Positions 26,622 through 64,000 of a stretch of DNA of 64,000 nucleotides are shown in pieces; positions within the stretch are counted from its first letter, which is position 1; each line of letters opens with the position of its first letter. This DNA comes from Nitrospirota bacterium (GTDB lineage Bacteria > Nitrospirota > Nitrospiria > Nitrospirales > UBA8639). The notes beneath the pieces are model-generated. The model was not told where the DNA came from, searched no databases, and was given only the letters and a program-made list of their open reading frames with translations. Position numbers and translations under genes: made by a program. The stretch spans positions 1 through 64,000 of the forward strand of contig JAOTTP010000007.1 in NCBI GenBank assembly GCA_029864405.1. The letters are read 5' to 3'.

Positions 26622-26636
26622 TGCGTGTGTCCTAAC

Positions 26637-32806: not shown

Positions 32807-32881
32807 TAACGACACTTTTAATAGTCAAAAAACCAAGTGAGTCAAATTGGGCGCAAGGGAACGTGTTTCTTTTACATACAT

Positions 32882-33880: not shown

Positions 33881-34137
33881 GAGCAAACCTCCGTTTACTG
33901 CAAGATCACCACAAGTCGAGTTTTGTTTCTCGTAAGATGATCGCCGTAATAATAAATTCGCATTGATTTGGGAGGTAGCTACCTTGACTCCCTCGAAAAG
34001 CGCCGTTTAGTATCATAATCTGATTGAATTATAGGAATGAGTTTTCCCTTTTGGCAAGAGAATCCCATTGATCCCTTCACGAAGCCGTACAAACGACGAT
34101 TTTGTTTTGTCCATCTGTTTCTCAAGCGAGGAATTTT

Positions 34138-47300: not shown

Positions 47301-47912
47301 TTATTTCAAATGAGAAGCAGCTTTTCTGGCAAATTCATAATCAGAGGGAGTATTAATATTCAAAAAAGAATACCCATGTGGGTCGATGTCTTGGAATAGA
47401 GATTCCTCGACAATTTGCACGGAGAGAGATGGGTCATTGACCAGGCTTTGAATTCGAAGGTTCCCATCATGAATCATTTGCTCCATGATAAAGGAGCATC
47501 GTTTGGAATACCGTCCATGAAGAGGCTGGAATCCGGTAGAAAGCTTGACCATCAGGACATCACTTTCAGGGAGGGCGCAAAGCCGGGAAATGACCAAAGA
47601 ATTTAAAAATGGCATGTCGCAGGCCACAACAAAAACCCAAGAATGCGAGGCCTCCTTGAGCCCCGTAAACAACCCACCCAAAGAACCCTTTTGAGGAATA
47701 GCGTCAGTCACTAATCGGACAGGGAGATGTCCGCATGGGTAATCTTCCGTGGCAGTCACCAGTAATACCTCATCAAATAAATCCCCCATGATGAGACAAA
47801 CTTTATCCAGAAATGTCGTCCCCTCCCATTCAAGAACTCGTTTATCTTTTCCCATCCTCCGGCTTTGGCCGCCTGCCAAGACTACACCGGAAATGGTTGT
47901 AAATTTCATCAT
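47301..47912 (-). CDS. mobA: Molybdenum cofactor guanylyltransferase
   Basis: About 203 residues. The nucleotide-binding motif V-V-L-A-G-G-Q-S-R-R-M-G-K-D-K lies right at the N-terminus; A-C-D-M-P-F-L-N (metal-binding D) lies in the middle. Transfers GMP from GTP to Mo-molybdopterin to build MGD, required by DMSO-reductase-family enzymes such as nitrite oxidoreductase. The longest frame would start at 47954, but its first 11 codons are the stem-loop of the upstream terminator, so an ATG at 47912 (or 47921, 47909) is preferred. None has a good Shine-Dalgarno. Confidence 0.9.
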   Translation of the reverse strand: MMKFTTISGVVLAGGQSRRMGKDKRVLEWEGTTFLDKVCLIMGDLFDEVLLVTATEDYPCGHLPVRLVTDAIPQKGSLGGLFTGLKEASHSWVFVVACDMPFLNSLVISRLCALPESDVLMVKLSTGFQPLHGRYSKRCSFIMEQMIHDGNLRIQSLVNDPSLSVQIVEESLFQDIDPHGYSFLNINTPSDYEFARKAASHLK

Positions 47913-47921
47913 ATTCGGCAT

Positions 47922-47951
47922 AAAAAAAAGGGGGTGGTTGCCCACCCCCTT
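47922..47951 (-). terminator. Strong intrinsic terminator of the cytochrome operon
   Basis: Perfect 10-bp stem AAGGGGGTGG / CCACCCCCTT with a 4-base loop (938-941), followed on the minus strand by eight T. It lies 36 bp after the stop at 47987 and abuts the mobA start. The A/T runs on both sides would allow bidirectional action. Confidence 0.95.
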
Positions 47952-47986
47952 CATTTTTTCGGAGAATTCCGATGCTTACATCTTTG

Positions 47987-49858
47987 TTAGGCTTTACCCT
48001 TGCGACGATTGGCTCGCCTGGTCAAAATCCACCCCTCGACAAGGACCAAACCAATGGCTGCCACAGTTGGATAGATATATGTTTCTTTTTCAATTGGTGG
48101 CTCTAACACAAGATAATAGAAGGCGGAGACCGCCATCTTTCGTCCGACATCCCCATTGTGACCATCCCACACAAAGAAATTGATAGGAATGTATTTCCCC
48201 AACTCAATGTAGGTATCTTCTTCATAGTCACCTTTGAGGGGGCGGGTCACGATAACCGTCCATCTGCCATTTTTCCATTCCGCTTTCACCAATTTCATTT
48301 GTTCGGTGAAATCATCACGATCATCAAAATCTACATCCCAACCGGTGCCTTGATAGGCTTTCAGTTCGCCATCAGCCGTCCATTTCGTGATGTCTACCGG
48401 AAATCCCTCATCTCCCCAGAAATATCTTGGTTTACGAGGTGCAGGCAATTCCTGCCATTTTATAGGAAATTGGAAGGCAATCCCATCATTAAATACTTGA
48501 TAGGCCGTTTGTTTGGCAGCAATAGATTCGGGATGTTCCGGATCATCCGCAAACTTTGATCCTCCTGGTGCCTGTTCTTCGATTCCATAATCACCAAGAT
48601 TTACTTCATAGGGCTCCCAGTCAACACTGTCTTTCTGCACACTCTTGGTACGGTCATCCCAACGGAACATGAAGGTAATATCCGTTTCATTATAGAGAGA
48701 TTGCACCCAAACATCGTCAATTCGGTTCACGAAATTGCGCGGCTTATGGGTAATTTGTCCACCCATGGCGACAATTCTACGCTCAATAAGTTTCCACCGC
48801 TCATCATGTTCATCAGCCGGTAGCTCTCCTTCAACAAACTTTGAAGGAACAACAAAATTGACCTTCGGTTTATCTGAAAGAGGATCAATTCCCCTCGGTT
48901 GGGCTGCCACTAAGGCCGCAGCGATCTCATCAGTGACGTTACCGCCGGCAATATCCACATCCATATCACGCTCACACAATGAGGCAACGTAATTGGCAAT
49001 ATGCCACCTATTCTCAACGGTGGTATTATCGGCAAACGAAGGCATGGGCGTTCCACTCACCCCCGTAGAAAATGTCCTAAAAATATTCTTTACATTATAG
49101 GCATCCTGTCGGCTGCCTCTGAAGTTCCAACATTTATGCCAGTCCGCAGGTTGAATGGAAAAACCCCAGTCATCCTTAAGATTGAAAGCATTCCCATCTC
49201 CGCGACCTTCCAGTCCATGGCATTCAATACACTTCAATTCTTTCACCAGTTCAGAGCCGCGCTTAACCGATTCCACCGTAGGAGGAACGGGTTGGATGGT
49301 GTCCAACTGCAACACATGAAATTCTTCAAATTCAGTATCTTGCCAACTACGATCCTTGACTAACTCAGTGGAAACGAAGGCCAAAACATCCCTACGCTGG
49401 TCCTCTGATAAAATACCTTCCCATGATGGCATAGCCGAACCCGGCAAACCATGGGTCACGGTTTGGAACAAATCAACGTCAATGAGGGGCAATTCACCGC
49501 TTGCCGTATGACGGATTTTAAAGGTACCAGAATTAAAATTACGCGGTCTGGGCCATAGACGGTCTGCGCCGGGGCCATCTCCAGCCCCCCCAACGCCATG
49601 GCACCATACACATTTCGTAAAATACACTCGCTTGCCTGCTTCAACTTTTTCAGCAGATGGTGGAGCCGGGCGACTCCCTTCGGCAAATCCCTCCGCCATC
49701 TCGGCGTAGGACGTGGTAGCTATACCTAGACCGCCCATAAGGAGACTACAACTGAGGAGCCAGGCGCTGAGGCCACGCCCACCATATTCGGCTGGTGTCT
49801 TTTCGTTCATGACCATCCTCTTTTCAATATGTCCAATTTCTGAATGAATTTCGTGCAT
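47987..49858 (-). CDS. Membrane-anchored dihaem cytochrome c fused to an EB_dh/NxrC-like domain
   Basis: 623 residues from the ATG at 49858, preceded by AAGGAGG; the longer frame would run into the upstream gene. N-terminal signal/anchor (about 30-52); cytochrome c domain 1 with CVWCH (83-87) and a possible M143 ligand; domain 2 with CIECH (210-214) and S-G-T-P-M-P. The C-terminal half is a beta-rich EB_dh-like domain ending in F-F-V-W-D-G-H-N-G-D-V-G-R-K, then a single transmembrane helix and a basic tail. The Lys haem ligand of NxrC-like proteins is conserved, but the C-M-G-Q Met appears replaced (Y-F-W-G-D). Last gene of the bd-like oxidase operon. Likely electron carrier at the periplasmic face. 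Confidence 0.8.
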   Translation of the reverse strand: MHEIHSEIGHIEKRMVMNEKTPAEYGGRGLSAWLLSCSLLMGGLGIATTSYAEMAEGFAEGSRPAPPSAEKVEAGKRVYFTKCVWCHGVGGAGDGPGADRLWPRPRNFNSGTFKIRHTASGELPLIDVDLFQTVTHGLPGSAMPSWEGILSEDQRRDVLAFVSTELVKDRSWQDTEFEEFHVLQLDTIQPVPPTVESVKRGSELVKELKCIECHGLEGRGDGNAFNLKDDWGFSIQPADWHKCWNFRGSRQDAYNVKNIFRTFSTGVSGTPMPSFADNTTVENRWHIANYVASLCERDMDVDIAGGNVTDEIAAALVAAQPRGIDPLSDKPKVNFVVPSKFVEGELPADEHDERWKLIERRIVAMGGQITHKPRNFVNRIDDVWVQSLYNETDITFMFRWDDRTKSVQKDSVDWEPYEVNLGDYGIEEQAPGGSKFADDPEHPESIAAKQTAYQVFNDGIAFQFPIKWQELPAPRKPRYFWGDEGFPVDITKWTADGELKAYQGTGWDVDFDDRDDFTEQMKLVKAEWKNGRWTVIVTRPLKGDYEEDTYIELGKYIPINFFVWDGHNGDVGRKMAVSAFYYLVLEPPIEKETYIYPTVAAIGLVLVEGWILTRRANRRKGKA

Positions 49859-49871
49859 TTCCGCGTCCTCC

Positions 49872-50840
49872 TTATTCCCAGGTTCGCGGGTAATACCCGG
49901 TGTGCCAATATTCAAACATAACGACTTTCCAGATTTCATCGACGGTTAAATGCTGTTCCCACGGTGGCATGACGGATGCCCATGGGAAAGCTTCACCGGG
50001 TAGTCCGATTCCCCCTTTGGACACTCGCCAGAATACGAAGGTCTCCTGTAGCTGAGCGATAGTTCCCGCATCGGTGAAATTGGCAGGAATTGGATTGAAG
50101 GCAAAGGCCCAGAGGCCGCGACCGTTCAAATTATCCCCATGACAGAAATGACAATTTTGAAAGAATATCTCTCCACCTTCCCGCACATGCTTGATATACC
50201 CCTTGGCGTTGGGGTCCCATGGATTTTCTTCCGCACTATTCACATCCTTCATTAAACGACCCATGGACTGGTCAACAATGTGGGCATTGCTATAGGCCTG
50301 ATCGTATTTTCCCTCCGGATTAATACGATACGGGTTGGAAGCGGTTTGCAATACATAGGTTTTCCCATGCACTTTAGTCGTAGCGGGTGGGGCTGGATGC
50401 ACCGTTCTCAATTCAATGGGTTCGTCAAAATTTGGAAGGAATGAATTGTAAGCAAACCCCCATAGCCCGATTGGCAATAAGATCAAAAGTGCAGTTCTGA
50501 TGAACTTCGTCATTCCTGTTTTTGCGTCTAACACATTAATGATAGGACGCTTAAATTCTTCCCACTCCTGTTGTGATCCAGATACCCACATGAAAATACC
50601 GCACGCAGACACGGTGCCATAAATTGCCCGCACACTAAACGGAATGGGTGGGTAAATCCGGTATTTAAGATAAAACACATTCACAAATGCCCAGACAAAT
50701 ATTCCTGCCCAAAACTTTGGCAAACCCATACCGGCTCTCTTGAGAGAGTAATTAATAATAGAAAACACCAGGATGCAGATCACCAACTCGGAAATCATCT
50801 GCATCGGCATGTAGCCTTCGACTAGTTTAAGCCAAGTCAT
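49872..50840 (-). CDS. Membrane-bound monohaem cytochrome c
   Basis: 322 residues. Four hydrophobic helices (about 14-33, 43-58, 69-87, 113-132), then a periplasmic cytochrome c domain with CHFCH (230-234) and a likely Met ligand in S-V-M-P-P-W-E. ATG preceded by AAGGAG. The N-terminal membrane part is not a recognised family. Thirteen base pairs from the following cytochrome-EB_dh gene and 45 bp after the dihaem cytochrome gene: same operon. Confidence 0.82.
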   Translation of the reverse strand: MTWLKLVEGYMPMQMISELVICILVFSIINYSLKRAGMGLPKFWAGIFVWAFVNVFYLKYRIYPPIPFSVRAIYGTVSACGIFMWVSGSQQEWEEFKRPIINVLDAKTGMTKFIRTALLILLPIGLWGFAYNSFLPNFDEPIELRTVHPAPPATTKVHGKTYVLQTASNPYRINPEGKYDQAYSNAHIVDQSMGRLMKDVNSAEENPWDPNAKGYIKHVREGGEIFFQNCHFCHGDNLNGRGLWAFAFNPIPANFTDAGTIAQLQETFVFWRVSKGGIGLPGEAFPWASVMPPWEQHLTVDEIWKVVMFEYWHTGYYPRTWE

Positions 50841-50885
50841 TCTTCCTTACTCCTTATAAAGGGTTATCCCCTAAATTAATATTCC

Positions 50886-52196
50886 TTATTCTTTTGGAGG
50901 TAAAGGTTGGCCCTCTTTCAACTGCGCCAAATAATCGACAATTTTATTGAGAGCCCCTCCTGTCAACCTTACGCCAAAATCTTTTGGCATTTGATTGTCA
51001 GGGAAATCTTTCACGACATATGCGCTTGGGTTCAATATCGATTCAGTGATGTATTCCTTGGGTGATTTGGCTTTGCCTTTATAAGTCGGATCCTTCAAAC
51101 GGTTGGGGGCATTCGAGCCCTCCATGAGAAGAGGACCAACTTTCCCAACGGCATCTTGAATTCCTGGGATAGTATGACAGGCCGGACATCCAGCCTTCAT
51201 AAAGAGCTTGTCAGTTGGTTCGCTCCCGTCCGCCAATATATTACCCCCCGCACCCTTCTCTTCTTCCCCACCTGCGGCAGGACGATCAGCTTCAGGAATA
51301 AACTTTTCATATGAGGTAGCAATTACATCATAAGCCGGGGCTTCTTTCCCTTCCCTTGTATACATCCAGGTATCAACAGCAGCCAGTTCACCTATTGTTA
51401 GTGATATCGGTGGTTTGTGAATCTTTGGCATGGGACTTGTTCCATCGTTAGAACCTTTCACACCAAACCCTGTCACCACAAAACAACTCGGGCATGCATG
51501 AGACTCAGCGATATATTCTTGGGCGTTCGTAGCAGTACCCGAACCAGGGAATGCTTCCTTTTGTTCGGTGGTACGGGCAGCCACATTGTTCATGTGATAA
51601 TTTGGCTCCTTCAGCCTTTCAATTGCCCTATCAGGAATTCCATAGAGGTTAGGAGCCCGTTCACTTAAAAATCCCTGTTGAAATCCATGACACAATGGGC
51701 ATTGACCTTTTCCAATGGCCCCTTGGGTTTTACTTTGGCCAATTCCACCAAAAATAATTTTTTCTCCCTCATCACCTAACTGCTGGGATGACATACTTTG
51801 GAAGTCTAGCTTCACAACAGGAGGGGGGAATCCACCTTCAACCTGCGGCAACCAATTTCCGTATCCGGAAAGGGCGGCTGCCACAAAAAACATGAACCCT
51901 CCAATTTTCATCAGCGCGCTAATATTAGGAAAATAGAGACCCATAACAAATGACATGATCGTGATCATGACCAGAGAAACCGGCAATAAACGGCTTTCCC
52001 CTTCAAAATTATGCGTATAATTTGAAATAGCCATAAGGGCCAAAAATGCGCATAAAATTCCAATTAACGTCTGGAAGCTTGCCCGTTTCTTTTTTACCGG
52101 GTCCGAAATAGATACCTGGAAATACAGCAACAGCCCGACCAGCATGAGCAATACTGGCCACCCCATTCCTATTGCCCGTCCCATTAACTCAACCAC
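50886..52196 (-). CDS. Membrane-bound dihaem cytochrome c
   Basis: 436 residues. Three or four N-terminal helices (about 12-30, 41-60, 70-90, 97-113), then two cytochrome c domains: CPLCH (166-170) with M-P-K-I downstream, and CPACH (337-341) with Q-M-P-K-D. Both domains share E-Y-I-x-E-S and a P-S/V-V strand. A CPSCF sequence at 235-239 lacks the histidine and is not counted as haem site. GTG start supported by GGAGG 8 bases upstream. Immediately downstream of the bd-like oxidase gene; likely donates electrons to or accepts them from it. Confidence 0.83.
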   Translation of the reverse strand: MVELMGRAIGMGWPVLLMLVGLLLYFQVSISDPVKKKRASFQTLIGILCAFLALMAISNYTHNFEGESRLLPVSLVMITIMSFVMGLYFPNISALMKIGGFMFFVAAALSGYGNWLPQVEGGFPPPVVKLDFQSMSSQQLGDEGEKIIFGGIGQSKTQGAIGKGQCPLCHGFQQGFLSERAPNLYGIPDRAIERLKEPNYHMNNVAARTTEQKEAFPGSGTATNAQEYIAESHACPSCFVVTGFGVKGSNDGTSPMPKIHKPPISLTIGELAAVDTWMYTREGKEAPAYDVIATSYEKFIPEADRPAAGGEEEKGAGGNILADGSEPTDKLFMKAGCPACHTIPGIQDAVGKVGPLLMEGSNAPNRLKDPTYKGKAKSPKEYITESILNPSAYVVKDFPDNQMPKDFGVRLTGGALNKIVDYLAQLKEGQPLPPKE

Positions 52197-52263
52197 AGTT
52201 CAATCCTCCAACTTGGGGGCTGCCTATCGCAGCCCCACAATTGTTTGTAATTGTATTTTTCGT

Positions 52264-54231
52264 TTAATGACCAGTTGCAGGCTGAGGAGACGGAACTGGC
52301 TGTCCTGCTTGCGCAGGAACCGGTATTTTCTTCGCACCAAGAGTTCCTAACCAAAACACAAACATAATACTGATCCAGAAAAATAACACGTTAAACGAAA
52401 TAACATTAGCTGCAAAACCAATTGTATGGGTATAGGCCCAGGGGGAATTATCCCGCATCACCTCATTGACATGCCAGAACAATCTCACTGATGAACGGAT
52501 ATACCCCATCAATCCCATCATCCATGTGAAGGCTGTGGCCAACATGATAATCGCATACTGGGAACGTGGTGGAATTTGTCCCCATCTAATTGGTCCTAAC
52601 TGTCTTCCATTTTTCAACATAGCCAAATTTAACGGGGTCATTAAAAACAAACATGACAACGTTCCGGCCACTTGAGGCACAGACAGACCGATTCGCACGT
52701 TTGCCGGGATGAAGTATCCATAACAAGCCAACCAAATATTGTTTAGCTGCGCTATGACGAAAAAACACCCCATAAAAATATTACCAAACTTTGCCCAGCT
52801 AACCGTTGGGACCCTATTCCCTCGCTGGTACCAAATAAAGCTTATAATGGTTGTCATGATGATGGCGTTAATCCCACCATTTTTAGCTGACATGACACCA
52901 TAATTACCCAGAACCGGATGCTGCTGACCTCCCATTGCTTTCAATTCCGCCGGGGTCATCACGATCGTATGTGGTGTGATGAAAACTAACAAACCACACA
53001 CCAAAATAAACACGAGATACTTAATGTACTTTTGAAATCTTTCTCCACCAGTCATTCGTCCCAACGCTTGCCACAAATAGTAGTTTGTAGTGAGGAACAG
53101 AATTCCAATCATGGTGGCTTGAATAATGAACAACCAGGCCAACAAACCACCCATCAAGGTAATTCCCATTTGCTGACGGTAGGCATACACCTCCCGCATC
53201 AACCAATATCCGGCAAATGGCAAAGGAATTAAAAAGGCCACACCTAGACTCATTGCGATATAGCCCATCCAATCATAATGAGCTCGCTCTTCGTCTGTTT
53301 TTGAAGAAAGAAAGCGATAGGCTGCATAGGCTGCCACCACACCACCACCAAAAGCCATGTTCCCCAAAATCCTATGAACATTCAGCGGATTCCACAGTGC
53401 CGTATGTATCACGTGCCAAATATTTCCTAAATATCGCCCCTGTTCATCAACTCCTGCCGGCGACATCATAAAGGCAATCCATGAATTTGCGAGGAACATC
53501 AACACTGTTCCAATAACATTCAGAATAACGGACATGCTGAGGTGAACCCACTTTAGGACACCTTCCCTCATCTTGTCCCAACCGTAATAATAGATATAGA
53601 GGACTCCACTTTCCGCTACGAAGGTTAATGCATAAATGTGCATGACGGGACGGAAAATACTAGACAAATATCCAAAAAAGGCCGGATACAGAGTGAGGAA
53701 GGTAAAGATCAGAATCCCACCAAGGATCGCCGTTAAGGAATAGGCGGTCAGACTGATCTTGATAAAATCATAGGCCAGCTGATCGTACTTCTTAGCCATT
53801 GCCTTATCTTTGCTTACCATTCCGGCAAATTCGATGCACATACAAAAGATTGGCACCGCCAACACAAAACTTCCGTAATAAAGATGCTGCTGGTTAGCCA
53901 CCCAAAGAAGGACACGACTTTCGAAGTTGTACCGAGGATAAAACGTTTCGTTGTCGGCTGTTACGGGTGCGCCGTCTCCAATGGCTGGACCTTCGGTCTT
54001 GTAATAAATGTCCCGGCCCATTTCAACTTTTTCCGCCTCGCCCTCTTCCCCTGCCTTTTGTGCGGCAACGACATCCGCAGGAGGACCACCGGCTGGAGCC
54101 CCACCCCCACTTGCGACGGCTGTGACTGACAGGAAAATCGGCAACAAAAGCAGACCACCCATCACCATCAAGGCCGATACGGCCAACAACTTTTTCTTCC
54201 CCCGGGTCATTTGATTGAACAGGCGACCCAT
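52264..54231 (-). CDS. Cytochrome bd-like oxidase subunit I (Nitrospira type)
   Basis: 655 residues from the ATG at 54231 (AAGGAGGT upstream). Signal-like N-terminus, a soluble linker of about 60 residues, then about 13-14 transmembrane helices related to CydA. Conserved with the second copy at 57964-59832: Q-Q-H116, K-W-V-H230, the H273-x2-H276 pair, N-P-L-N-x-H286, T-P-H-T and Q-H-P-V-L/I-G. The canonical CydA quinol-loop GRQPW is not seen. Such proteins have been proposed as the terminal oxidases of Nitrospira, which often lack ordinary haem-copper oxidases. No CydB partner lies nearby; cytochrome c genes follow instead, so cytochrome c may be the donor. Small membrane peptides are encoded just upstream. 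Confidence 0.85.
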   Translation of the reverse strand: MGRLFNQMTRGKKKLLAVSALMVMGGLLLLPIFLSVTAVASGGGAPAGGPPADVVAAQKAGEEGEAEKVEMGRDIYYKTEGPAIGDGAPVTADNETFYPRYNFESRVLLWVANQQHLYYGSFVLAVPIFCMCIEFAGMVSKDKAMAKKYDQLAYDFIKISLTAYSLTAILGGILIFTFLTLYPAFFGYLSSIFRPVMHIYALTFVAESGVLYIYYYGWDKMREGVLKWVHLSMSVILNVIGTVLMFLANSWIAFMMSPAGVDEQGRYLGNIWHVIHTALWNPLNVHRILGNMAFGGGVVAAYAAYRFLSSKTDEERAHYDWMGYIAMSLGVAFLIPLPFAGYWLMREVYAYRQQMGITLMGGLLAWLFIIQATMIGILFLTTNYYLWQALGRMTGGERFQKYIKYLVFILVCGLLVFITPHTIVMTPAELKAMGGQQHPVLGNYGVMSAKNGGINAIIMTTIISFIWYQRGNRVPTVSWAKFGNIFMGCFFVIAQLNNIWLACYGYFIPANVRIGLSVPQVAGTLSCLFLMTPLNLAMLKNGRQLGPIRWGQIPPRSQYAIIMLATAFTWMMGLMGYIRSSVRLFWHVNEVMRDNSPWAYTHTIGFAANVISFNVLFFWISIMFVFWLGTLGAKKIPVPAQAGQPVPSPQPATGH

Positions 54232-54331
54232 TGACCTACCTCCTTGTGAAAACGTGTTGTGTTTATAACCATCAAATTTACCAACAAATTGTCGAATGCA
54301 AATGTTCAACTAAACGTTCGCTACACTTGCC

Positions 54332-54448
54332 TTAACGGAACATGTAAAAATAATCGAGTCCCTGTGCATCCATCAGCACATAATCTAATGCCTGGAAATA
54401 CACAAAACAAATGACCAATGAAACTATGACATACAGAATTGTCTGCAT
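54332..54448 (-). CDS. 38-residue single-pass membrane protein upstream of bd-like oxidase
   Basis: Sequence begins MQTILYVIVSLVICFVYF: a transmembrane helix from residue 3 to about 20, then a short acidic/aromatic tail (D-Y-V-L-M-D-A-Q-G-L-D-Y-F-Y-M-F-R). ATG at 54448 is preceded by AAGGAGGAG at ideal spacing; the stop is TAA at 54332-54334. It lies 100 bp upstream of the oxidase start. Size and topology recall CydX-type accessory peptides of cytochrome bd, but no sequence similarity is claimed. Confidence 0.75.
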   Translation of the reverse strand: MQTILYVIVSLVICFVYFQALDYVLMDAQGLDYFYMFR

Positions 54449-54508
54449 GCGCTCCTCCTTGGGTCTAAGAGAATTAAATGATTGATTGTCTTTTTGGAAA
54501 TCATGTTT

Positions 54509-54643
54509 TTAGCAGGGGCACTGAATACCAGCAAACCAATAGAAGAACCAGAAACTTACCGCGCAGGTCAGGTAGAAGATAGCCTTACCAATTTTAACCT
54601 CTAATTCAGTTGATTCTCTTATTACCGCCGTCGAATCACCCAT
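54509..54643 (-). CDS. 44-residue single-pass membrane protein
   Basis: Sequence begins MGDSTAVIRESTELEVKIGK, followed by a hydrophobic aromatic helix (A-I-F-Y-L-T-C-A-V-S-F-W-F-F-Y-W-F-A-G-I) and the C-terminus Q-C-P-C. ATG at 54643 is preceded by GGGAGGAA, and the stop is TAA at 54509-54511. The terminal C-P-C could bind metal or form a disulfide. First gene of the apparent bd-like oxidase operon, 60 bp upstream of the 38-residue protein gene. Confidence 0.7.
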   Translation of the reverse strand: MGDSTAVIRESTELEVKIGKAIFYLTCAVSFWFFYWFAGIQCPC

Positions 54644-54772
54644 TCTTAATTCCTCCCTGTGCTTAATTCACATCCAAAGTTTAGATGATTTTCCCTAATA
54701 AAGTTCATTGACACAATATAATTTTTCGTGGTATTCAAACATTCATTGATCACGTAAAAAGAGGGATTACTC

Positions 54773-54877
54773 ATGCGTACAAATGCAAAAGTGTTCGACA
54801 TTATAGTTTTGGCCGGAATGGTTGTCAATATTCTCCTGGCCGTCTTTCTCATCCTCTACTATTTTGATTTTCTTTAA
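54773..54877 (+). CDS. 34-residue hydrophobic peptide on the opposite strand
   Basis: ATG at 54773, stop TAA at 54875-54877. The sequence MRTNAKVFDIIVLAGMVVNI continues as a hydrophobic helix L-L-A-V-F-L-I-L-Y-Y-F-D-F-L. An AGAGGG lies about 8 bases before the ATG. It is divergent from the 44-residue gene, within the 280-bp interval. It is supported only by codon plausibility, ribosome-binding site and topology. Confidence 0.5.
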   Translation: MRTNAKVFDIIVLAGMVVNILLAVFLILYYFDFL

Positions 54878-54922: not shown

Positions 54923-55798
54923 TCAATTTATTGAACGCGCGCACCTGAAACCAATCGTCTCATCTCGAAAATCAGGAACCATAAAACTTCTATTGGTGAT
55001 CCGGAGATCGACCCCTTGGCTCGTATAGCCACTACCTCTCATGGTCTTATAAGTTGAAGGAGGCCGACCACCTTCCTGCGAAACAGTATTTTTTTGAAGG
55101 TAGAGATCCTCAATGTACCAATTATCCGTCCATTCCATCACATTTCCTGCGCCGTCATAGACCCCGAACACACTTTGATCAAGAGGAAACGATCCAACCG
55201 GAGCCGACACTTCAAACCCGTCGGCGTCTCCCGCAAAATTGGCAGGATGACCTGTCAGACCCTCACCCCACGGCCAGGTGCGTCCATCTGTCCCTCGCAT
55301 AGCCTTCTCCCATTCCTGTTCAGTCGGAAGACGCTTGCCTTTCCATTGACAATAGTCATTGGCATCGCTCCATGACACATAGGTAATCGGCTGATAAGGC
55401 CCTCGTAGCAATCCGAGCTTTGCGGCATATCGGGATGGCGGTCCTGGCTGCCGATGTCCGGTAGCTTCCACAAATTCCATATACCGTTTGTAGATAACTT
55501 CATACCGATCAATCCAGTACGCATTTAGATTAGCAACGTGAGCAGGCTTTTCATTGAATCCGCCTTGATTACTGCCAAGAATGAATTCCCCTGCAGGTAT
55601 TTCAACCATCTCGTTTCCAATTTCCGGATCAGGAACCACCGCATCGATGGACGGCTCCAATGTCGAGGAAGGCAGGGATTGATTATCGCGATCTGGAAGA
55701 GTCGGAGGAGAATCGGTTCCTCTCAAAATCCCCAACAACGGCAGGCCGGTCATAAACAACACCGCAATCAAAAAAATGAGTTTAAATCGGCCGTCCAT
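54923..55798 (-). CDS. FGE/SUMF1-fold protein, membrane-anchored, lacking catalytic Cys
   Basis: 291 residues. N-terminal transmembrane anchor (about 5-24), linker, then the FGE-sulfatase fold (about 63-290): M-V-E-I-P-A-G-E-F-I-L-G-S-N, N-A-Y-W-I-D-R-Y-E-V, V-S-W-S-D-A-N-D-Y-C-Q-W-K-G-K-R-L-P-T-E-Q-E-W-E-K-A, and G-N-V-M-E-W-T-D-N-W. The copper-binding C-x4-C of true formylglycine-generating enzymes is absent (M-R-G-S-G-Y-T-S-Q-G-V-D). No sulfatase is encoded nearby. A structural or binding role outside the membrane is more likely. Confidence 0.85.
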   Translation of the reverse strand: MDGRFKLIFLIAVLFMTGLPLLGILRGTDSPPTLPDRDNQSLPSSTLEPSIDAVVPDPEIGNEMVEIPAGEFILGSNQGGFNEKPAHVANLNAYWIDRYEVIYKRYMEFVEATGHRQPGPPSRYAAKLGLLRGPYQPITYVSWSDANDYCQWKGKRLPTEQEWEKAMRGTDGRTWPWGEGLTGHPANFAGDADGFEVSAPVGSFPLDQSVFGVYDGAGNVMEWTDNWYIEDLYLQKNTVSQEGGRPPSTYKTMRGSGYTSQGVDLRITNRSFMVPDFRDETIGFRCARSIN

Positions 55799-55883
55799 GT
55801 TTCCCTATTTCTGGTCCGTCATTGTTGCCTATACCGAGAAACCATGGGCGATTTTTCTCGCCGGTGAGAAGCCTGATTATCGC

Positions 55884-56801
55884 TTATGAGGATTGAAAAG
55901 TCTCAGTAGGAGGATCTTTTGCGCACCGGAATCCGACACTCGCATCGCTCCTCCACATTATAGCTGAAAAACGCTTGGTGACCCTGGCGCCTATACGAGA
56001 CTCACGCCATGACCCTCCACGAATGACTTTATTCTTATCTTCGTCTTTCGGACCAGGGGGATCCCGATATGGCGCTTGCTGATAATAGTCAGGGGAATAA
56101 CTATCCATGACCCACTCGGCCACATTGCCGGTAGCATCATAGAGCCCAAATGGGCTTCTCCCTACCTCGAAGGATCCCACGGGAGCTAAATACTGAAAGC
56201 CATCCTCCTCCCCGTCCACATTGGCAAACTGATATTCGAACTTATCACCCCAAGGATACCGCCGTTTCCCCTCTCCCCGTGCCGCTTTTTCCCACTCCGC
56301 TTCGGTCGGCAACCGCTTACCAGCCCACCGACAATACCCAAACGCGTCGTTCCAGGTCACAGCCACCACCGGATAATCCAGACCGACCAACTTGGCGACA
56401 TCATCTTCAAAGACCGGCACCTTAGGCTTGTCGCGTTTCGTCATCTTGATGTACCGCTCATAATCAGCCTGCGTCACTTCTTTCAGATCGATGTAAAACG
56501 TTTGGAGATATACCGGATGCGATGGCCCCTCATCGGGATCCCCATCGCCAATGCCCATGGTAAATGGCCCTTCAGGAATTTCGACCATTTTCCGATCATC
56601 ATCCCCGACAAGCGTTTTATACATAGAAAAATCTTGCGTGGGCATCGGCTGTAACACCCGGACTTTGGCCGATTGGCCAGCCGACAACTCTTCCAACTCT
56701 TTTTTCCCTTTATATGACATAAAAACCATCATCACGATCATCATGATGAAAGAGCCGAAGACAAACAGAATGGCCCCGATGAGGACCCGTTGATTTTCCA
56801 T
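55884..56801 (-). CDS. FGE/SUMF1-fold protein, membrane-anchored (paralogue)
   Basis: 305 residues: anchor helix (about 8-28) then the FGE fold with M-V-E-I-P-E-G-P-F-T-M-G, V-T-W-N-D-A-F-G-Y-C-R-W-A-G-K-R-L-P-T-E-A-E-W-E-K-A-A-R and G-N-V-A-E-W-V-M-D. At the active-site position the sequence reads R-G-G-S-W-R-E-S-R-I-G-A, again without the two cysteines. Paralogous to and cotranscribed with the gene at 54923-55798. Likely same topology: cytoplasmic N-terminus, periplasmic domain. Confidence 0.85.
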   Translation of the reverse strand: MENQRVLIGAILFVFGSFIMMIVMMVFMSYKGKKELEELSAGQSAKVRVLQPMPTQDFSMYKTLVGDDDRKMVEIPEGPFTMGIGDGDPDEGPSHPVYLQTFYIDLKEVTQADYERYIKMTKRDKPKVPVFEDDVAKLVGLDYPVVAVTWNDAFGYCRWAGKRLPTEAEWEKAARGEGKRRYPWGDKFEYQFANVDGEEDGFQYLAPVGSFEVGRSPFGLYDATGNVAEWVMDSYSPDYYQQAPYRDPPGPKDEDKNKVIRGGSWRESRIGARVTKRFSAIMWRSDASVGFRCAKDPPTETFQSS

Positions 56802-57232: not shown

Positions 57233-57964
57233 TCATTCCCGTCCAACATCACTTTGGGAAGAATCAGACTGTACCTGAATGGAGCCAAAGTCCACTTCCA
57301 CCCCTGGTCCCCCTAATAAGGAAATGCCCCAGGCATGTGGTGCCGGTTCATGGTCATGAATCTTTAGGAAATCTTTATACACATTCACCCGCTCCTCTAC
57401 CCACTCCCCAAGAGATTGAGTCCCGCTACGAATAATAATTTCTGTGGAGCTAAACATGCCTCCCTCTTTAACTGTGCCTACAGGAAGTGTTGCACTCCAC
57501 ACGTATTTCGTGTTCACCGGAATAAACATCAAGTCGACATCCAGGGACGGATAAATTGCGGCCAGAAAATCGGCATTATCGGGAACATGCTGTATTCGCC
57601 AACGCCAGGTCAGGATAGGGTGTTGCTTCGGATCCCACGTCATGCGTTTGGTATACACCCGTTGATTGGCGCTCTTCGCCGATAGAAAAAAACCCCCATC
57701 CTCCTCTTGAATCCTATAGGTTTCATGGGCTGTGACCGTACTCCGCTGCGCCTCCCATCCCTCAGGAAATCCTTTGGCATCAGGATGCTGGAAGTCCTCC
57801 AACACCATCGGACTACCGGAAGCCCTTGTGCTTGGGACCTCTTGGGCACACACGACACCATTCCCACTCACGACGATGCCCAATATCAAGCATGCCCAAA
57901 TAGGCCTTACCCTGTTTCGCTTCGCACACTCTATCCTATTATGTTCTCTACGACAGACTCTCAT
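57233..57964 (-). CDS. DUF3047-family exported protein
   Basis: 243 residues from the ATG at 57964, which overlaps the TAA of the bd-like oxidase gene by one base (TAATG), a coupling signal. Signal segment (about 20-41), then a beta-sandwich with P-I-L-T-W-R-W-R-I, S-L-D-V-D-L-M-F-I and the tail R-V-N-V-Y-K-D-F-L...H-A-W-G-I-S-L-L-G, which I recognise as DUF3047. Biochemical function not known. Confidence 0.8.
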   Translation of the reverse strand: MRVCRREHNRIECAKRNRVRPIWACLILGIVVSGNGVVCAQEVPSTRASGSPMVLEDFQHPDAKGFPEGWEAQRSTVTAHETYRIQEEDGGFFLSAKSANQRVYTKRMTWDPKQHPILTWRWRIQHVPDNADFLAAIYPSLDVDLMFIPVNTKYVWSATLPVGTVKEGGMFSSTEIIIRSGTQSLGEWVEERVNVYKDFLKIHDHEPAPHAWGISLLGGPGVEVDFGSIQVQSDSSQSDVGRE

Positions 57965-59832
57965 TACGCGGATTCCTCTTCTGAAAGAACCTGAACCACC
58001 GGAGAAGGCCGTGCTAATGCAGCCGTTCGCCGCTCGACCACTCGTTGATCCCATCGACTAAGCCAAAACACAAAAAACACCGCTGACCAAAATACAATCA
58101 TATTGACGGTCACCATTTTCGCGGCAAATCCCAACGAAGGGGTAAACGCCCACGAAGAACGATCAGGCATAAGTTCTGAAATATGCCACTCCAATCGACC
58201 AGCAGATCGGATATACCCCATCAATCCCATTACCCACGAAAACGCGGCAGCCACGACAAACAATGCCAGTATCCCACGCGGGGTAATTTGGCCCCAATGA
58301 ACCGGCCCGGTCATGTGAGCGCCCTTCAACAACCATCGGTTGAACCATAATCCCCCAACGACTATGGTGGCTGTCGTCATTCCTTGAGGCAAAGAAAGCC
58401 CCACTCGAACATTGGCCGGAATATAAAATCCGTAAATAGCCAACCACACAATGTTCGCAATTCCCATGAAAAATAACGACAGGAGAAAAACATTACCCAC
58501 TGTTGCCCATCGTACAACCATCACTCGATTGGCTCGTCGATATAGGACATAGCTCAACGCGGTTAAACAGATCATCACGTTGATGGCACCGTTCTTCGCG
58601 GACATCACACCAAATTGACCGATGACCGGATGCTGCGCCGCACCCATCGCTTTCATCTCTCCTGCACTCATCGCAATGGTGTGCGGCGTAAACCACACGA
58701 GAAAACACACCATCAAGGCAAAAAGGATCGCCTTAAAATACGGATGATAGCGTTCGCCACCTTGAAGGCGAGCCAATGATTGCCAGATATAATAATTAAT
58801 CCCCAAAAATAAGACCCCAACCATGATAGCTTGGAGCACAAACAACCACGACAGCATGCCTCCCATCATCGTGATGCCCATATGCTGTCTAAACTCAAAC
58901 ACCGCTCGCATCAACCAATATCCAGCAAGTGGCATGGGGAGCAAGGCGCACACCATGACCACAATAAACACATGGCCCACCCAATCATAATACGCCCGGT
59001 CTTCCAAGGTTTTTGCCATGAAAAACCGGTAGGCCGCGTAGGCGACAACCACCGCCCCGCCAGACATGATATCCGCCAAAAAACGATGTGCATTCAGCGG
59101 ATTCCATAAGGGAGAATGCAAAAGATGCCACACATTACCTAAAAAATGCCCTTGGCCATCCACGCCGGACGGGGCCATCATGAATGAAGCCCACGAATTC
59201 GCTAACAACAACAAAATCACTCCGGTTCCATTTGAAAGCACGCCAAGCGTCATATGCATCCACTTCCTTGACGGGGTTTTCATAAAATTCCAGGTGTAGT
59301 AATACAGAGCTAACAGGAAGGCTTCGCTCACAAACACCGCAGCATACACCGGCATCACCGGCTTAAAGGTCGCCCCCATATAGCTCATAAACCCTGGGTA
59401 CAGGGTCACAAAGGTCACGAGCATGAGCGTGCCCAACAAGGCGGTAATGGACATCGATAACAACCCGACGCGTAGAATATCACGGGCCAATCCATCGAAC
59501 TTTTGCTGAGATCCCTGTTGCTTACGTGTAAATCCCAAAAACTCTAACAACAGACTAAACAAGGGAAGGGATAAGACAAAGCCGCCAAAATACGTGTGCT
59601 GTTGGGTTACAAACCACACGACCAACCGGTTATCGATCAGAGGAAAAATGGAATAGCCCTCAACGCTTTCTTCCGCGGCCGGCCCTTCAATGGTTCCTGA
59701 AGTTTGGTAGAAAATATCCTGGCTTCTCTCTCCGTCATTCAACGGAAAAATCTCGGAATCCGCACCCAACGCGATTCCAGCCTGAAGCAGAAAGGCGACC
59801 ACCACACCCAATAATGGCGCTATACGTGGCAT
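57964..59832 (-). CDS. Cytochrome bd-like oxidase subunit I, second copy
   Basis: 622 residues; the ATG at 59832 is preferred to the preceding TTG. Signal peptide (about 1-24, A-L-G-A-D), then 13-14 helices collinear with the protein at 52264-54231. Shared positions: Q-Q-H-T-Y-F-G-G, K-W-M-H, G-N-V-W-H-L-L-H, N-P-L-N-A-H-R-F, T-P-H-T-I-A-M, Q-H-P-V-I-G-Q-F-G-V-M-S-A-K-N-G. It lacks the longer N-terminal linker of the first copy and has no GRQPW loop. No cytochrome c gene accompanies it; instead DUF420, PCP_red and polytopic proteins precede it. Electron donor unknown. Confidence 0.85.
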   Translation of the reverse strand: MPRIAPLLGVVVAFLLQAGIALGADSEIFPLNDGERSQDIFYQTSGTIEGPAAEESVEGYSIFPLIDNRLVVWFVTQQHTYFGGFVLSLPLFSLLLEFLGFTRKQQGSQQKFDGLARDILRVGLLSMSITALLGTLMLVTFVTLYPGFMSYMGATFKPVMPVYAAVFVSEAFLLALYYYTWNFMKTPSRKWMHMTLGVLSNGTGVILLLLANSWASFMMAPSGVDGQGHFLGNVWHLLHSPLWNPLNAHRFLADIMSGGAVVVAYAAYRFFMAKTLEDRAYYDWVGHVFIVVMVCALLPMPLAGYWLMRAVFEFRQHMGITMMGGMLSWLFVLQAIMVGVLFLGINYYIWQSLARLQGGERYHPYFKAILFALMVCFLVWFTPHTIAMSAGEMKAMGAAQHPVIGQFGVMSAKNGAINVMICLTALSYVLYRRANRVMVVRWATVGNVFLLSLFFMGIANIVWLAIYGFYIPANVRVGLSLPQGMTTATIVVGGLWFNRWLLKGAHMTGPVHWGQITPRGILALFVVAAAFSWVMGLMGYIRSAGRLEWHISELMPDRSSWAFTPSLGFAAKMVTVNMIVFWSAVFFVFWLSRWDQRVVERRTAALARPSPVVQVLSEEESA

Positions 59833-59836
59833 CAAT

Positions 59837-60913
59837 TCAATTCACCAAATCGACGTGCCCGACTTTGGCCTCAGCGAGAGAAGGAAGAGGCACAGTGGCT
59901 TTTGATTTTTGGAGAATTCCCATTACGAATGGACAACGTTGCAGGGATTCCGGAATAACGACGAGATGCTCTTCATAGGATTTACGCCAGCCCAGAAAGA
60001 GTGTATACGTTGTCATCAACGTGGCAGTGCAAGCCGCCATGGCCACAAATCCTGCCTGAGGGATCACCTCCACCCGGAACACAAACGCCGTCAATCCCAT
60101 AAGCACCAAATAATAGGTGGCAGAAAAGGTTAAACTGGGCCACACCCAAAACCACAGAGAGGAAAGCCAGGTCCTTGGCTTGCGCCCTTTCGTATGTTGA
60201 GCATATAACGCTTCCCCGCTAAAAAACGACCTCAACCCTATGGATGCAACAATAACGGGAACGAGTAATGATTGAATCATTGGTTGCAGTTCGATCGATC
60301 CCACCCGGAATAAGAGCCATGAACCGGCCATCCCTAAAAGGAAAGCCAAGGCTCCCCATTTCAATACGACCGCCATCTCCCGAGGAATCCATTTTCGGAA
60401 GACCTCTCCGTCAGGAAACGTGGGGACCACCACTCCTTCCTGCTGGGTCAATCGTTGCACATGACCAATTTCAAAGGCATCCCGGGTCACGGAGGTGCAT
60501 GAAATAATAATCGCCATCATGGCTGGACCTTCAGGGTGGAGCAGGAAATCATACCCGACAAACACTTGAAGAATCGCCAAAACCAAGAGGGATAATTGGA
60601 TCCCATAGACCAGACCAATCCATCCCACCAACCACACCCACCGCTGAACCCCATCCTGGCGCCAGGATTCCCTGAGAGTGACCCCACGCCCCTGTCGATA
60701 GGCCCAGATGGCAGCGAGCATTGAGATACACCCACTGAGTCCCAGCAGCACCAAGGGATCGGAAAGCGGCAAGACCTGCTTCAGAAGACGGTAAATCCCA
60801 AAAGCCACCAGACCGGGAGCCAGCATTACCAAACGTTTGCGCTTACGGACAGGTGGATCCGTCACAAACGCATTCAACTGTGGCAAGACTCGTAGGGACA
60901 GTCGATGCAACAT
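59837..60913 (-). CDS. Polytopic membrane protein upstream of bd-like oxidase
   Basis: 358 residues with about 8 hydrophobic helices. Not recognised. A cytosolic-looking loop (about 140-170, R-D-A-F-E-I-G-H-V-Q-R-L) lies mid-protein; a cluster of aromatic residues (W-L-S-S-L-W-F-W-V-W-P-S) is conspicuous near the C-terminal third. Stop TGA is 4 bp before the oxidase ATG, so the two are surely coupled and the product may be a second subunit or assembly factor. Confidence 0.75.
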   Translation of the reverse strand: MLHRLSLRVLPQLNAFVTDPPVRKRKRLVMLAPGLVAFGIYRLLKQVLPLSDPLVLLGLSGCISMLAAIWAYRQGRGVTLRESWRQDGVQRWVWLVGWIGLVYGIQLSLLVLAILQVFVGYDFLLHPEGPAMMAIIISCTSVTRDAFEIGHVQRLTQQEGVVVPTFPDGEVFRKWIPREMAVVLKWGALAFLLGMAGSWLLFRVGSIELQPMIQSLLVPVIVASIGLRSFFSGEALYAQHTKGRKPRTWLSSLWFWVWPSLTFSATYYLVLMGLTAFVFRVEVIPQAGFVAMAACTATLMTTYTLFLGWRKSYEEHLVVIPESLQRCPFVMGILQKSKATVPLPSLAEAKVGHVDLVN

Positions 60914-60979
60914 TCCGTTACTCGCTTCGAGGAAATTCCCAGAGTTTGATTGTTTGCGCCGATTCGCTCACAAGGAGTT

Positions 60980-61459
60980 TCATGTGCGCCCGGTCGCCAT
61001 ACCAAAGTAGCGGGCTTTAACCTCTTCCATCAAGGCAACCGTGACCACAGGCATCCCGCGATCCAGAGCCGTACGTTCCAACTCAATCCTAGCCATCGCC
61101 CGGATTCCGGACGGCACATTGTCTATACGACGCTCTGCGTCTGGACTCCACTCCACCATCCCCTTATTCCGCGCCGACCCAACACGCGCAAACGTCACAA
61201 CCCTTTGCGCCCTGCTAGAAACAAACCCCTCCACCTCTTCACACACGAGAGGAACTAAATAGGGGGGAAGCCGGCTTAATTGATACAAGGCCTCATCCGT
61301 CCATAGGGTGTGAGGAACCATCGGATCCAATTCTTTGGCACTCCCCTCTGCCCCAAGAGAAAATCCACACTGATCGCAATGAAATTTCGCAAACACAGAA
61401 TCGGAGGGTAACTCTTCAATATCAGTGATCCGCAAGGAATGGTGACAACCACATTGCAT
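60980..61459 (-). CDS. Zinc-ribbon protein with two PCP_red domains
   Basis: 159 residues from the ATG at 61459 (a TTG at 61474 would overlap the upstream stop). Zinc-ribbon-like C-G-C and C-D-Q-C-G near the N-terminus, then two copies of a short PCP_red-like helical domain, best seen in W-S-P-D-A-E-R-R-I-D-N-V-P-S-G-I-R and A-L-D-R-G-M-P-V-V-T-V-A-L-M-E-E-V. The domain is named from the C-terminus of the light-independent protochlorophyllide reductase B subunit, but standalone forms occur in non-phototrophs. Not a pigment enzyme; cytoplasmic, role unknown. Confidence 0.75.
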   Translation of the reverse strand: MQCGCHHSLRITDIEELPSDSVFAKFHCDQCGFSLGAEGSAKELDPMVPHTLWTDEALYQLSRLPPYLVPLVCEEVEGFVSSRAQRVVTFARVGSARNKGMVEWSPDAERRIDNVPSGIRAMARIELERTALDRGMPVVTVALMEEVKARYFGMATGRT

Positions 61460-61466
61460 GAACGGC

Positions 61467-62192
61467 CTACCCAATTTTTCCCGGATAGAGGATGTAGAGC
61501 ATAGTATACGTAAACGTTCCGGTCACAAACAGCACACAATAGATCACCATGGTGAATCTTCCGAGTACCCGATGTCGTCTGGCCCCATTGGGCCAAATCC
61601 GCTGAATAGCTATTTCAATGCCAAACACCATCGCGATGAGAATAATAAGACCAAGATACACACTGAATTTCCCCATGGAAAATCCAGACGTCATTACCCG
61701 TGACAGAAAAAACAAGAGGACAACAGTGGTAATCCCTCCCAGGATCGTCACAATACGTCGTCCAGAAGTCTTCAAAATGGCTTCCTTCAAGACTCGCTTC
61801 CCTTCCACGAAGGTTTGTGACCGAAATCCCAACACCATCATATAAATGGCCATGACGAGACCGGTTACCACCAAGAGAATATGAAGGGTCAAGACAGGGA
61901 CAAATACCTGATCGTATAACCATTGAGGACCGCCAAAGCCTTCCTTTCCCTCAAAAGCCAGGACGCCAAGATTGCGAAACAAATAATAACTGATAAAGAA
62001 GGCGAGCATGGCAATCATCCCACCGAACATCAGCCAATGGTGATGATCGGTTTTATGCTGTCTCGCCTGGATCCATCCGACAATAAACAATGTCGTAAAG
62101 AACGTCGCCATCAGTTGGCTCACATCGGCTCCAACCGTGGCATGGGTCCCGAAAAATCCTGGTGCTCTCAGCCATACTGCCATTTCATCCAT
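61467..62192 (-). CDS. DUF420-like membrane protein
   Basis: 241 residues with six hydrophobic helices. Conserved polar residues H-K-T-D-H-H-H-W-L-M-F-G-G and T-L-H-I-L-L-V-V, plus R-R-H-R-V-L-G-R-F-T at the last helix, match DUF420/YozB-type proteins, which elsewhere accompany oxidase genes. Several histidines could bind haem or copper, not demonstrated. Upstream of the PCP_red gene (7 bp) in the second oxidase module. Confidence 0.8.
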   Translation of the reverse strand: MDEMAVWLRAPGFFGTHATVGADVSQLMATFFTTLFIVGWIQARQHKTDHHHWLMFGGMIAMLAFFISYYLFRNLGVLAFEGKEGFGGPQWLYDQVFVPVLTLHILLVVTGLVMAIYMMVLGFRSQTFVEGKRVLKEAILKTSGRRIVTILGGITTVVLLFFLSRVMTSGFSMGKFSVYLGLIILIAMVFGIEIAIQRIWPNGARRHRVLGRFTMVIYCVLFVTGTFTYTMLYILYPGKIG

Positions 62193-62214
62193 AAGTGAGT
62201 GCCATGCCCTTCTG

Positions 62215-63192
62215 TTATTTCGTGCCTTGAATCATGGCACGCGGTTCTAATTCTTCTACTATTCGAAACCCGGCTTGTTCCATCCATTGGCGACTTTCTT
62301 GAATCGTAAAGCACTCGCCACATTCTGTGTTCACCAGAATATGGACGGCAAAGGCTGTCGTCCAGGCCGGACTCGTTTTAGCAGGATCTAAAAACCGGTC
62401 TTTAATGATCAGTCGTCCGCCCTCATTCAAAGACTCATAGACTTTCTTCACCAATGCCGCATTGGCCCTGCCATCCTGGTAATGCAAAATATCCGACATG
62501 AGGGCAAGATCATAAGGCCCCTCAAAGGCATCAACATGAAAGTTGCCGCCTTGCAAATGGATACGATCCGCTAAGCCCGCGCGTTCTACATGTTGCTTGG
62601 TCATCTTTAAGGTTTGCGGGAGATCAAAAACGGTGGCAGACAACCCGGGATGTTCCACGCAAAAGGCAATGGCATTGGTTCCCGCCCCACCACCAATATC
62701 CAGCAACCGCTTGGCTCCATGAAGTGGGACCCGTTCCGCTAATCCCTGCCCGCTTCCTTGCCCGATCCGATCTAATACGGTAAGCACATGGGCCCCCAGT
62801 TCTGGATTCGTTTCAAAAACATGTTGGGTCACGGGTGACCGTCCGGTTCTCACGGTCTGTTCCAACTGCCCCCAATGACTCCATTCAGCGTCATGCAACA
62901 GTAATAAATGGCCTACATAGTCGGAGCCGGATTGTACCAGATATCGATCAGCCACAGGGGTATTGGTATACAGCTTCTCTTCTTTCGTTAAAACACGCAT
63001 CGCCACTAAGGCGTTCATGACCAACTCCAAGGCCCGTGGGTTGAGCTTCCGGGCATCGGCGACCTCATTGACCGTGAGGGACTGTCCCTTGAGTGCGGTA
63101 AAGAGATCAAGCTTAACAGCGGTGAGGAGAATCTTGGTTTCCCAGTAGTATCCTATCTGAAAAATATCTGCGAGAGATGATTCGCGAGTCAC
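62215..63192 (-). CDS. SAM-dependent O-methyltransferase-like protein
   Basis: 325 residues from GTG 63192, preferred to TTG 63270 because TTTGAGGCC precedes it. N-terminal winged-helix dimerisation domain (L-T-V-N-E-V-A-D-A-R-K-L-N-P-R-A-L-E-L-V-M-N-A-L), then the SAM fold with L-L-D-I-G-G-G-A-G-T-N-A-I (motif I), V-F-D-L-P and D-I-L-H-Y-Q-D-G. This is the plant-COMT / bacterial hydroxyneurosporene-methyltransferase type. Substrate unknown. It starts the second oxidase module after a strong terminator. Confidence 0.85.
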   Translation of the reverse strand: MTRESSLADIFQIGYYWETKILLTAVKLDLFTALKGQSLTVNEVADARKLNPRALELVMNALVAMRVLTKEEKLYTNTPVADRYLVQSGSDYVGHLLLLHDAEWSHWGQLEQTVRTGRSPVTQHVFETNPELGAHVLTVLDRIGQGSGQGLAERVPLHGAKRLLDIGGGAGTNAIAFCVEHPGLSATVFDLPQTLKMTKQHVERAGLADRIHLQGGNFHVDAFEGPYDLALMSDILHYQDGRANAALVKKVYESLNEGGRLIIKDRFLDPAKTSPAWTTAFAVHILVNTECGECFTIQESRQWMEQAGFRIVEELEPRAMIQGTK

Positions 63193-63308
63193 ACGGGGCC
63201 TCAAACTCAAAATCCAACATGAAAAATCATTTTCGATGTCGATCTTAACGGGGTCATTTTGCGAGGTCAAATGCTTACCGATCAGGGAAATTGTCGAAGC
63301 TTCTCCAC

Positions 63309-63347
63309 AAAAAACAAGGGCAACTAGCCCATGGCTAGTTGCCCTTG
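63309..63347 (-). terminator. Strong intrinsic terminator of the rightmost gene
   Basis: Perfect 15-bp stem 63315-63329 / 63333-63347 (CAAGGGCAACTAGCC / GGCTAGTTGCCCTTG) with a 3-base loop, followed on the minus strand by T6. Lies 33 bp after the stop at 63380. Confidence 0.95.
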
Positions 63348-63379
63348 ACAGAAGAGCTATGCCCCCAATCGAAGGAGAC

Positions 63380-64000
63380 TTATTTAATCTCGAAATTGGC
63401 TTCGACGGTTCCCCCGTCCTTCACATCCACATCGGCTTCCACCTGGCCGGCAACAGGATGCCAGGCCATTACTTTGTGTTTCCCGGCAGGCACGTCCTTG
63501 ATTTCAAAGGTTCCATCCGCGCCGGCCGTACCATAATGGGCATTGGTCACGGGCAAATACCAGGCTTGCATGAATTCATGCTGGTCACATTGCAACCGCA
63601 AGACAGAACCCTTTTTGGACATTTTCAATTTGACACTTTTCTCCAACGAATCACCCTTCCTGGCTAATCCGATATTGAACTCCGTGCTGGACTTGGCACC
63701 CAGTTGATCGAAGCTATGCGGGTTGTGCAACACGCCTTCCGCCGACTTCGGGTCGCTTGGATCCGCATCCTCATTCACGACCTTAAACAGGCCCTTACTC
63801 ACGGCAATACCCGTATAGGGCTTAAACTCGCACAATTCGGCCTCCACCGTTTGCGGGGCCTCTTTATCGGCTTTGTCCGTAAAGGCCTTGTCTTGAATAT
63901 CACGAACCGACACCACTGCGTTTTTCAATCCTTTACTTCCATCCACTTCCACTTCTTTAAGCAAACGGGTATTCCCATCTGCGCTTTTGCTCTCATTTTT
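63380..64000 (-). CDS. Partial exported protein with carboxypeptidase-regulatory-like domain
   Basis: The frame is open to the right edge (visible N-terminal residues K-N-E-S-K-S-A-D-G-N-T-R-L), so the start is outside. About 206 residues are visible. The end is a CarboxypepD_reg-like beta-sandwich (G-T-F-E-I-K-D-V-P-A-G-K-H-K-V-M-A-W-H-P-V-A-G). Before it lies a cupredoxin-like stretch with C-D-Q-H-E-F-M-Q-A-W, where Cys/His/Met could be copper ligands (inference). Probably periplasmic. Its strong terminator separates it from the methyltransferase gene. Confidence 0.7.
   Translation of the reverse strand, partial: KNESKSADGNTRLLKEVEVDGSKGLKNAVVSVRDIQDKAFTDKADKEAPQTVEAELCEFKPYTGIAVSKGLFKVVNEDADPSDPKSAEGVLHNPHSFDQLGAKSSTEFNIGLARKGDSLEKSVKLKMSKKGSVLRLQCDQHEFMQAWYLPVTNAHYGTAGADGTFEIKDVPAGKHKVMAWHPVAGQVEADVDVKDGGTVEANFEIK

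Follow-up and report, generated by a model that had tools for sequence, protein, structure and literature searches.

How Nitrospira passes electrons from nitrite to oxygen is unsettled: most members lack haem-copper oxidases, and the bd-like enzymes that have been proposed are biochemically uncharacterised. A bd-like protein common to Nitrospina, Nitrospira and Kuenenia was recognised in the 2013 Nitrospina genome paper, with the Q-loop and quinol residues missing and a role in reverse electron transport considered possible (PMC3578206). In Nitrospira moscoviensis, the main text of a 2019 report describes a bd-like_3/alt_NxrC_2 cluster with bd-like_4 nearby and ranks its transcripts among the 40 strongest (PMC6606698). 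Conserved synteny, Gln and Phe at the positions of putative ligands, and a Nitrospina-type strain that carries the cluster and has neither haem-copper oxidases nor canonical bd were also reported earlier (PMC8026999). The name OR-N is in use for a CydA type which, in the passages that summarise Murali et al. (2021), lacks the quinol site, occurs in Nitrospirota and has a putative cytochrome c donor (PMC10839748, PMC12342949). Here we analyse a window of 64,000 nt from contig JAOTTP010000007.1 of a Nitrospirota metagenome-assembled genome (MAG; GCA_029864405.1, 66% complete, four bd-like genes), which carries an operon (47987–54643, minus strand) whose core is the already published Nitrospira bd-like_3 cluster, comprising the bd-like protein, two c-type cytochromes and alt_NxrC. 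Judged from sequence, we put at roughly 0.5 the probability that this operon encodes a cytochrome-c-linked bd-type oxygen reductase.

The bd-like subunit (bd3; 52264–54231, minus strand, 655 aa) belongs to the CydA family (Pfam PF01654, E 1.8e-19). Its AlphaFold2 model (mean predicted confidence, pLDDT, 68) superimposed on ten CydA structures with Z scores of 23.1–24.8 and root-mean-square deviations of 3.9–4.5 Å over 342–357 residues. Matches to ActC/ActF of alternative complex III (Z ~16) fell far under the CydA scores and give no membership, and partial matches of residues 358–546 to haem-copper oxidases (Z 6–7) did not rise above unrelated entries. For the ligands we aligned 53 bd-like proteins, 21 of them bd3, to an E. 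coli CydA reference verified against PDB 6rko, one lacking residue having been inserted beforehand. The equivalents of CydA E107 (E207 in bd3) and H186 (H286) are kept in 53/53 sequences, and that of H19 (H116) in 48/53, including 21/21 bd3. The Q-loop residues K252 and E257 aligned to no Lys or Glu in any of the 53. An earlier note on this DNA had equated the quinol loop with GRQPW. In E. coli CydA this motif follows Glu445 (EYGRQPW), and Lys252 and Glu257 belong to the Q-loop, a distinct insert. That correction leaves the note's loss of the quinol loop intact, given that neither GRQPW nor the Q-loop residues are kept. The note was also right that CydB is absent from the cluster, where Pfam found none; nor was CydB found in the host MAG, at its 66% completeness, or in 35 of the 38 carrier genomes.

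The operon further encodes three membrane-anchored cytochromes: a dihaem protein (c2; 50886–52196, minus strand, 436 aa, GTG start, four predicted helices), a monohaem protein (c1; 49872–50840, minus strand, 322 aa, with predicted helices and a haem motif) and a dihaem cytochrome–EB_dh fusion (alt_NxrC; 47987–49858, minus strand, a helix at both ends). The start of the last is most likely at 49858, giving 623 aa, although its residues are numbered below for the 650-aa open reading frame (ORF). Pfam recognised Cytochrom_C in all three, with EB_dh additionally in the fusion (PF09459, E 2.1e-17; TIGR03477 under its cut-off). The fusion also matched 6h5l_B; a match to 7b04_C was weak, K601, considered as a possible axial ligand of haem b, lay where the matched motif ends, and the AlphaFold2 model reached a pLDDT of 54. 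The 2+1+2 CXXCH sites are conserved in relatives. For every one of these five c-haems a single conserved Met (M170, M299, M291, M256 and M403) is plausibly placed as an axial ligand, so the operon's c-haems are likely to be high-potential. The 436-aa protein matches Kustd1711 (PDB 7zs0, E 8.5e-6), which is encoded in the anammox nxr cluster and has haems near +350 mV (PMC11791136). The linkage, the His/Met haems and this high-potential homologue lend support to the coupling to c-type cytochromes that the earlier note had proposed. Between the haem sites of the 436-aa protein (residues 233–239), a HACPSCF/HACPSCY motif is present in 50/77 relatives and is perhaps the relic of a third haem site.

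Oxygen as the acceptor, a possibility raised in the earlier note, is favoured by G248 and G331, two family f6 genomes (96% and 95% complete) in which exactly one CydA-family gene occurs, the bd3 orthologue with its cytochromes. Haem-copper oxidase (COX1), CydB, alternative oxidase, NxrA and dsrA were all without a match in these genomes, and given their completeness bd3 would be their only recognised candidate oxidase. Both encode HemF, an enzyme that requires oxygen. Relatives with one bd-like gene thus offer a natural test of an oxidase role for the cluster. Distant carriers had been expected to lack oxygen reductases, as anaerobes would; most encode both haem-copper oxidases and dsrA, and they provide no argument for the presence of the cluster in anaerobes.

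In the arrangement we propose, the operon products would form one membrane complex, in which the dihaem/EB_dh protein with its two anchors would gather high-potential electrons on the periplasmic side, together with the two other anchored cytochromes. Nitrite oxidisers would draw these electrons from nitrite oxidoreductase (NXR), and relatives lacking NXR from other donors. Electrons may then pass through the His/Met c-haems to the CydA-type subunit without its quinol loop, where they would most likely reduce oxygen. Two or three single-helix microproteins, described below, probably stabilise the complex, by analogy with CydX in canonical cytochrome bd. An oxygen reductase is supported by the CydA fold, the H19/E107/H186 equivalents, the loss of the Q-loop residues and a gene order kept over the class, and further by the conserved Met residues, the likeness to Kustd1711, G248 and G331, and the Nitrospina-type strain. 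Several observations weigh against it. An equivalent of CydA E99 was not found in the bd-like alignment, and E445 and M393 align to Leu and Thr within a poorly aligned C-terminal half, E445 probably having no equivalent. Residues 437–438 of bd3 are QH and not HH, with Gln in place of one putative His copper ligand, and the three-His putative copper site of the NIDE0901-like oxidase was not found in bd3. HemF indicates oxygen use and not respiration, G248 and G331 are two MAGs from which genes may have been missed, and conservation of the bd-like cluster in anammox bacteria, which are anaerobic, has been published (PMC3578206). Finally, as detailed below, bd3 copies beside nxrA stand without the rest of the operon.

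The distribution of the cluster bears on both this reading and its closest competitor. A bd-like match was present in 147/147 Nitrospirales genomes sampled and in 196/396 genomes across the phylum. The synteny that the earlier note had proposed to check proved extensive, the operon gene order being repeated, to the limits of the contigs, in 80 named loci and held across the class far beyond chance. Nearly all loci of the class have the order bd-c2-c1-EB_dh, which several distant families also show with shorter cytochromes. In the genomes searched from families f4–f13 the cluster is present and NxrA is absent at 1e-60, and we conclude that the cluster is not specific to nitrite oxidation and reject a function in NXR activity only. 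From NXR presence, f1, f2, f3 and f4 are probably UBA8639, NS-4, Nitrospiraceae and UBA2166 (families as in PMC12342949). The link to nitrite oxidation drawn in the earlier note is supported by NXR-adjacent copies and the published high transcription and qualified by the families that keep the cluster without NxrA.

The competing explanation, in which the complex is a membrane link between NXR and the quinone pool, serving reverse electron transport from nitrite or working in the direction of nitrate reduction through an unrecognised quinone site in the bd-like subunit, is a serious possibility that we hold to be less probable than oxygen reduction. We observed here a bd3-type copy beside nxrA, apparently not described before, lying directly 5′ of it in seven genomes of two families (L155, L156, L172–L176). 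The nxrA of L155 encodes both GWKPSDPYYK and AIALDTGYQSNFR, the two peptides of NxrA for which quantification in N. marina is published (PMC8115632), and in a tree made by a quick method, with some long branches, the window bd3 groups with N. moscoviensis and these NXR-adjacent copies. In four distant genomes, moreover, a single run of genes holds a bd-like gene, whose CydA H19 equivalent is Met, together with two cytochrome genes and NxrA-like, NxrB-like and EB_dh (NxrC-like) genes, with TorD in three. A link to NXR would also agree with the published conservation in anammox bacteria and with mobA, for the NXR-type cofactor, lying 3′ of the cluster in 66/69 loci. Against it, the whole cluster is present in families without NxrA, the Q-loop is lost, and G248 and G331 yielded no further oxygen reductase. 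The four distant genomes and one relative (L148–L152) also form a clade separate from bd3 in the tree. In all five the CydA H19 equivalent is Met and H421 is Arg, so oxygen reduction is unlikely in that clade.

Alternatively, the bd-like protein could act alone or with other partners, such as bd4 or NXR, the cytochromes and microproteins being merely expressed from the same promoter. This would suit the NXR-adjacent bd3 copies, alongside which cytochrome genes and small ORFs were not detected, and subunit contact is an assumption drawn from gene linkage, which we count in its favour. Such strict co-conservation of the gene order over the class nevertheless makes it improbable.

Preceding bd3 in the operon are two small genes, encoding a 44-aa protein with a C-terminal CPC (54509–54643, minus strand) and a 38-aa protein with a QGLD motif (54332–54448, minus strand), each a single-helix protein. 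They are conserved at 117 and 121 loci, the closer pairs giving ratios of nonsynonymous to synonymous substitution (dN/dS) of 0.087 and 0.096, and counterparts lie at the same places in most other families of the class. A third, 34-aa single-helix protein is encoded divergently from the operon (54773–54877, plus strand) at 129 loci, and wherever both this gene and the 44-aa gene were placed (102/102 loci) the two run in opposite directions. Its pN/pS is 0.086, with variation of 0.236 at third positions and 0.006 at second positions. Ribosome-binding sites precede the small ORFs, and Pfam and NCBIfam gave a significant match for none of the three. In size, helix and linkage the microproteins agree with CydX, without a sequence-family match. 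The suggestion that they are chance frames over conserved regulatory DNA, which the promoter inside the 34-aa ORF might encourage, is very improbable given these substitution ratios, the third-position bias and the ribosome-binding sites. All three ORFs appear to be genuine conserved protein genes, new here; neither they nor the nested promoter are described in the main texts on the cluster, supplements aside. They may serve as handles for locating the complex by proteomics. A 68-aa minus-strand ORF (54646–54852) antisense to the 34-aa gene was not counted as a gene, with stops in the antisense frames of many or all relatives.

Within the 34-aa gene lies a perfect sigma-70 promoter sequence, TTGACA-17-TATAAT, on the minus strand at 54828–54800, predicted to serve the operon. 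It is exact in 106/108 loci, both exceptions being one sequence present twice (TACAAT). Four degenerate third positions inside the hexamers are invariant over 83 distinct sequences, against an average variation of 0.288 in the rest of the gene (Mann-Whitney p 0.0009, indicative only, the sequences being related). In 1.49 Mb of Nitrospirales loci, 74 perfect promoters were found, all within the 34-aa gene, whose protein and antisense promoter both seem to be under constraint. In f4 and f5–f13 loci the promoter score within this gene is 7–10 of 12, and CPC closes the 44-aa protein in the NXR-carrying families f1, f2 and f3, with other endings, often containing His, in f4–f13, which are without NxrA. 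A perfect promoter together with the CPC tail was thus encountered solely in NXR-bearing families; the association of tail and NXR may reflect one evolutionary change and so provides no independent statistical test. In the nitrite-oxidising families the operon seems to be served by a strong promoter that sits inside a divergent gene; this predicts strong expression and agrees with the transcript ranks of N. moscoviensis. A fuller scenario, in which the operon of a cytochrome-c-oxidising bd-type oxygen reductase with three microprotein subunits was placed under the consensus promoter, nested in the gene of the third subunit, at the origin of nitrite oxidation in Nitrospirales, the CPC tail being part of the same change, is offered tentatively and is rather unlikely as a whole.

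As for the locus at large, the earlier note had read six genes on one strand with ribosome-binding sites, a terminator and five CXXCH sites, and the coordinates, Pfam matches and a stem with T tract agree; it overlooked the third small gene and the promoter inside it. All six ORFs were verified on the minus strand at the positions given in that note, spaced 13–100 nt apart with a GGAG-like ribosome-binding site before each start, and a terminator (47927–47952, minus strand; 11-pair stem and T tract) closes the operon. Of the points made in that note, the cluster, the missing Q-loop and the idea of reverse electron transport had already been published in 2013–2020 (PMC3578206, PMC6606698, PMC8026999). 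Rfam matched no RNA families. Directly 3′ of the terminator is a mobA-like gene (molybdenum cofactor guanylyltransferase; 47301–47909, minus strand), found no more than 3 kb from the EB_dh gene in those 66/69 Nitrospirales loci. The paralogous bd4 (57964–59835, minus strand; 48% identity) lies outside the operon, ~5.4 kb upstream in 69 loci, and between them are two FGE-sulfatase-domain proteins (54923–56801, minus strand) whose relatives adjoin bd3 in nearly all class loci. The neighbours of bd4 (59837–63964, minus strand) include a PCP_red-domain protein, a DUF420 membrane protein and a carboxypeptidase-regulatory-like protein; genes for the last two also adjoin the single bd3 cluster of f6. 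Further away, at 19739–33886 (minus strand), a conserved NxrC/TorD region holds two multihaem cytochromes, two small EB_dh (NxrC-like) proteins, a TorD-like chaperone of type II dimethyl sulfoxide reductases and a ferredoxin; nxrAB is not in the window.

Among known systems, the closest is the N. moscoviensis locus (L078), with the genes of the window in the same order, both small ORFs and bd4 ~5.3 kb upstream, of which the window is an orthologue; the main-text account of that cluster mentions neither microproteins nor a nested promoter (PMC6606698). For anammox bacteria and Nitrospina, the comparison is with published papers and PDB chains. The anammox nxr cluster (PMC11791136, PMC8387239) has the Kustd1711 homologue of the dihaem cytochrome and a published bd-like gene, and sits with nxrABC itself, unlike the window operon. 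NIDE0901/bd-like_2, the proposed Nitrospira terminal oxidase, corresponds to a 43% identical paralogue at G000:C147:45690-47342, its counterpart assigned from the HH pair proposed for copper, where the window bd3 has QH. As the OR-N type is described in the passages cited above, bd3 resembles it in lacking the quinol site and in having c-type cytochrome partners. Compared with canonical cytochrome bd (E. coli CydAB-CydX), the proposed complex lacks CydB and the Q-loop residues, further helices replacing the Q-loop in the bd-like protein (PMC3578206), and would have three cytochrome subunits; the fold and the equivalents of H19, E107 and H186 are common to both, as small single-helix partners probably are.

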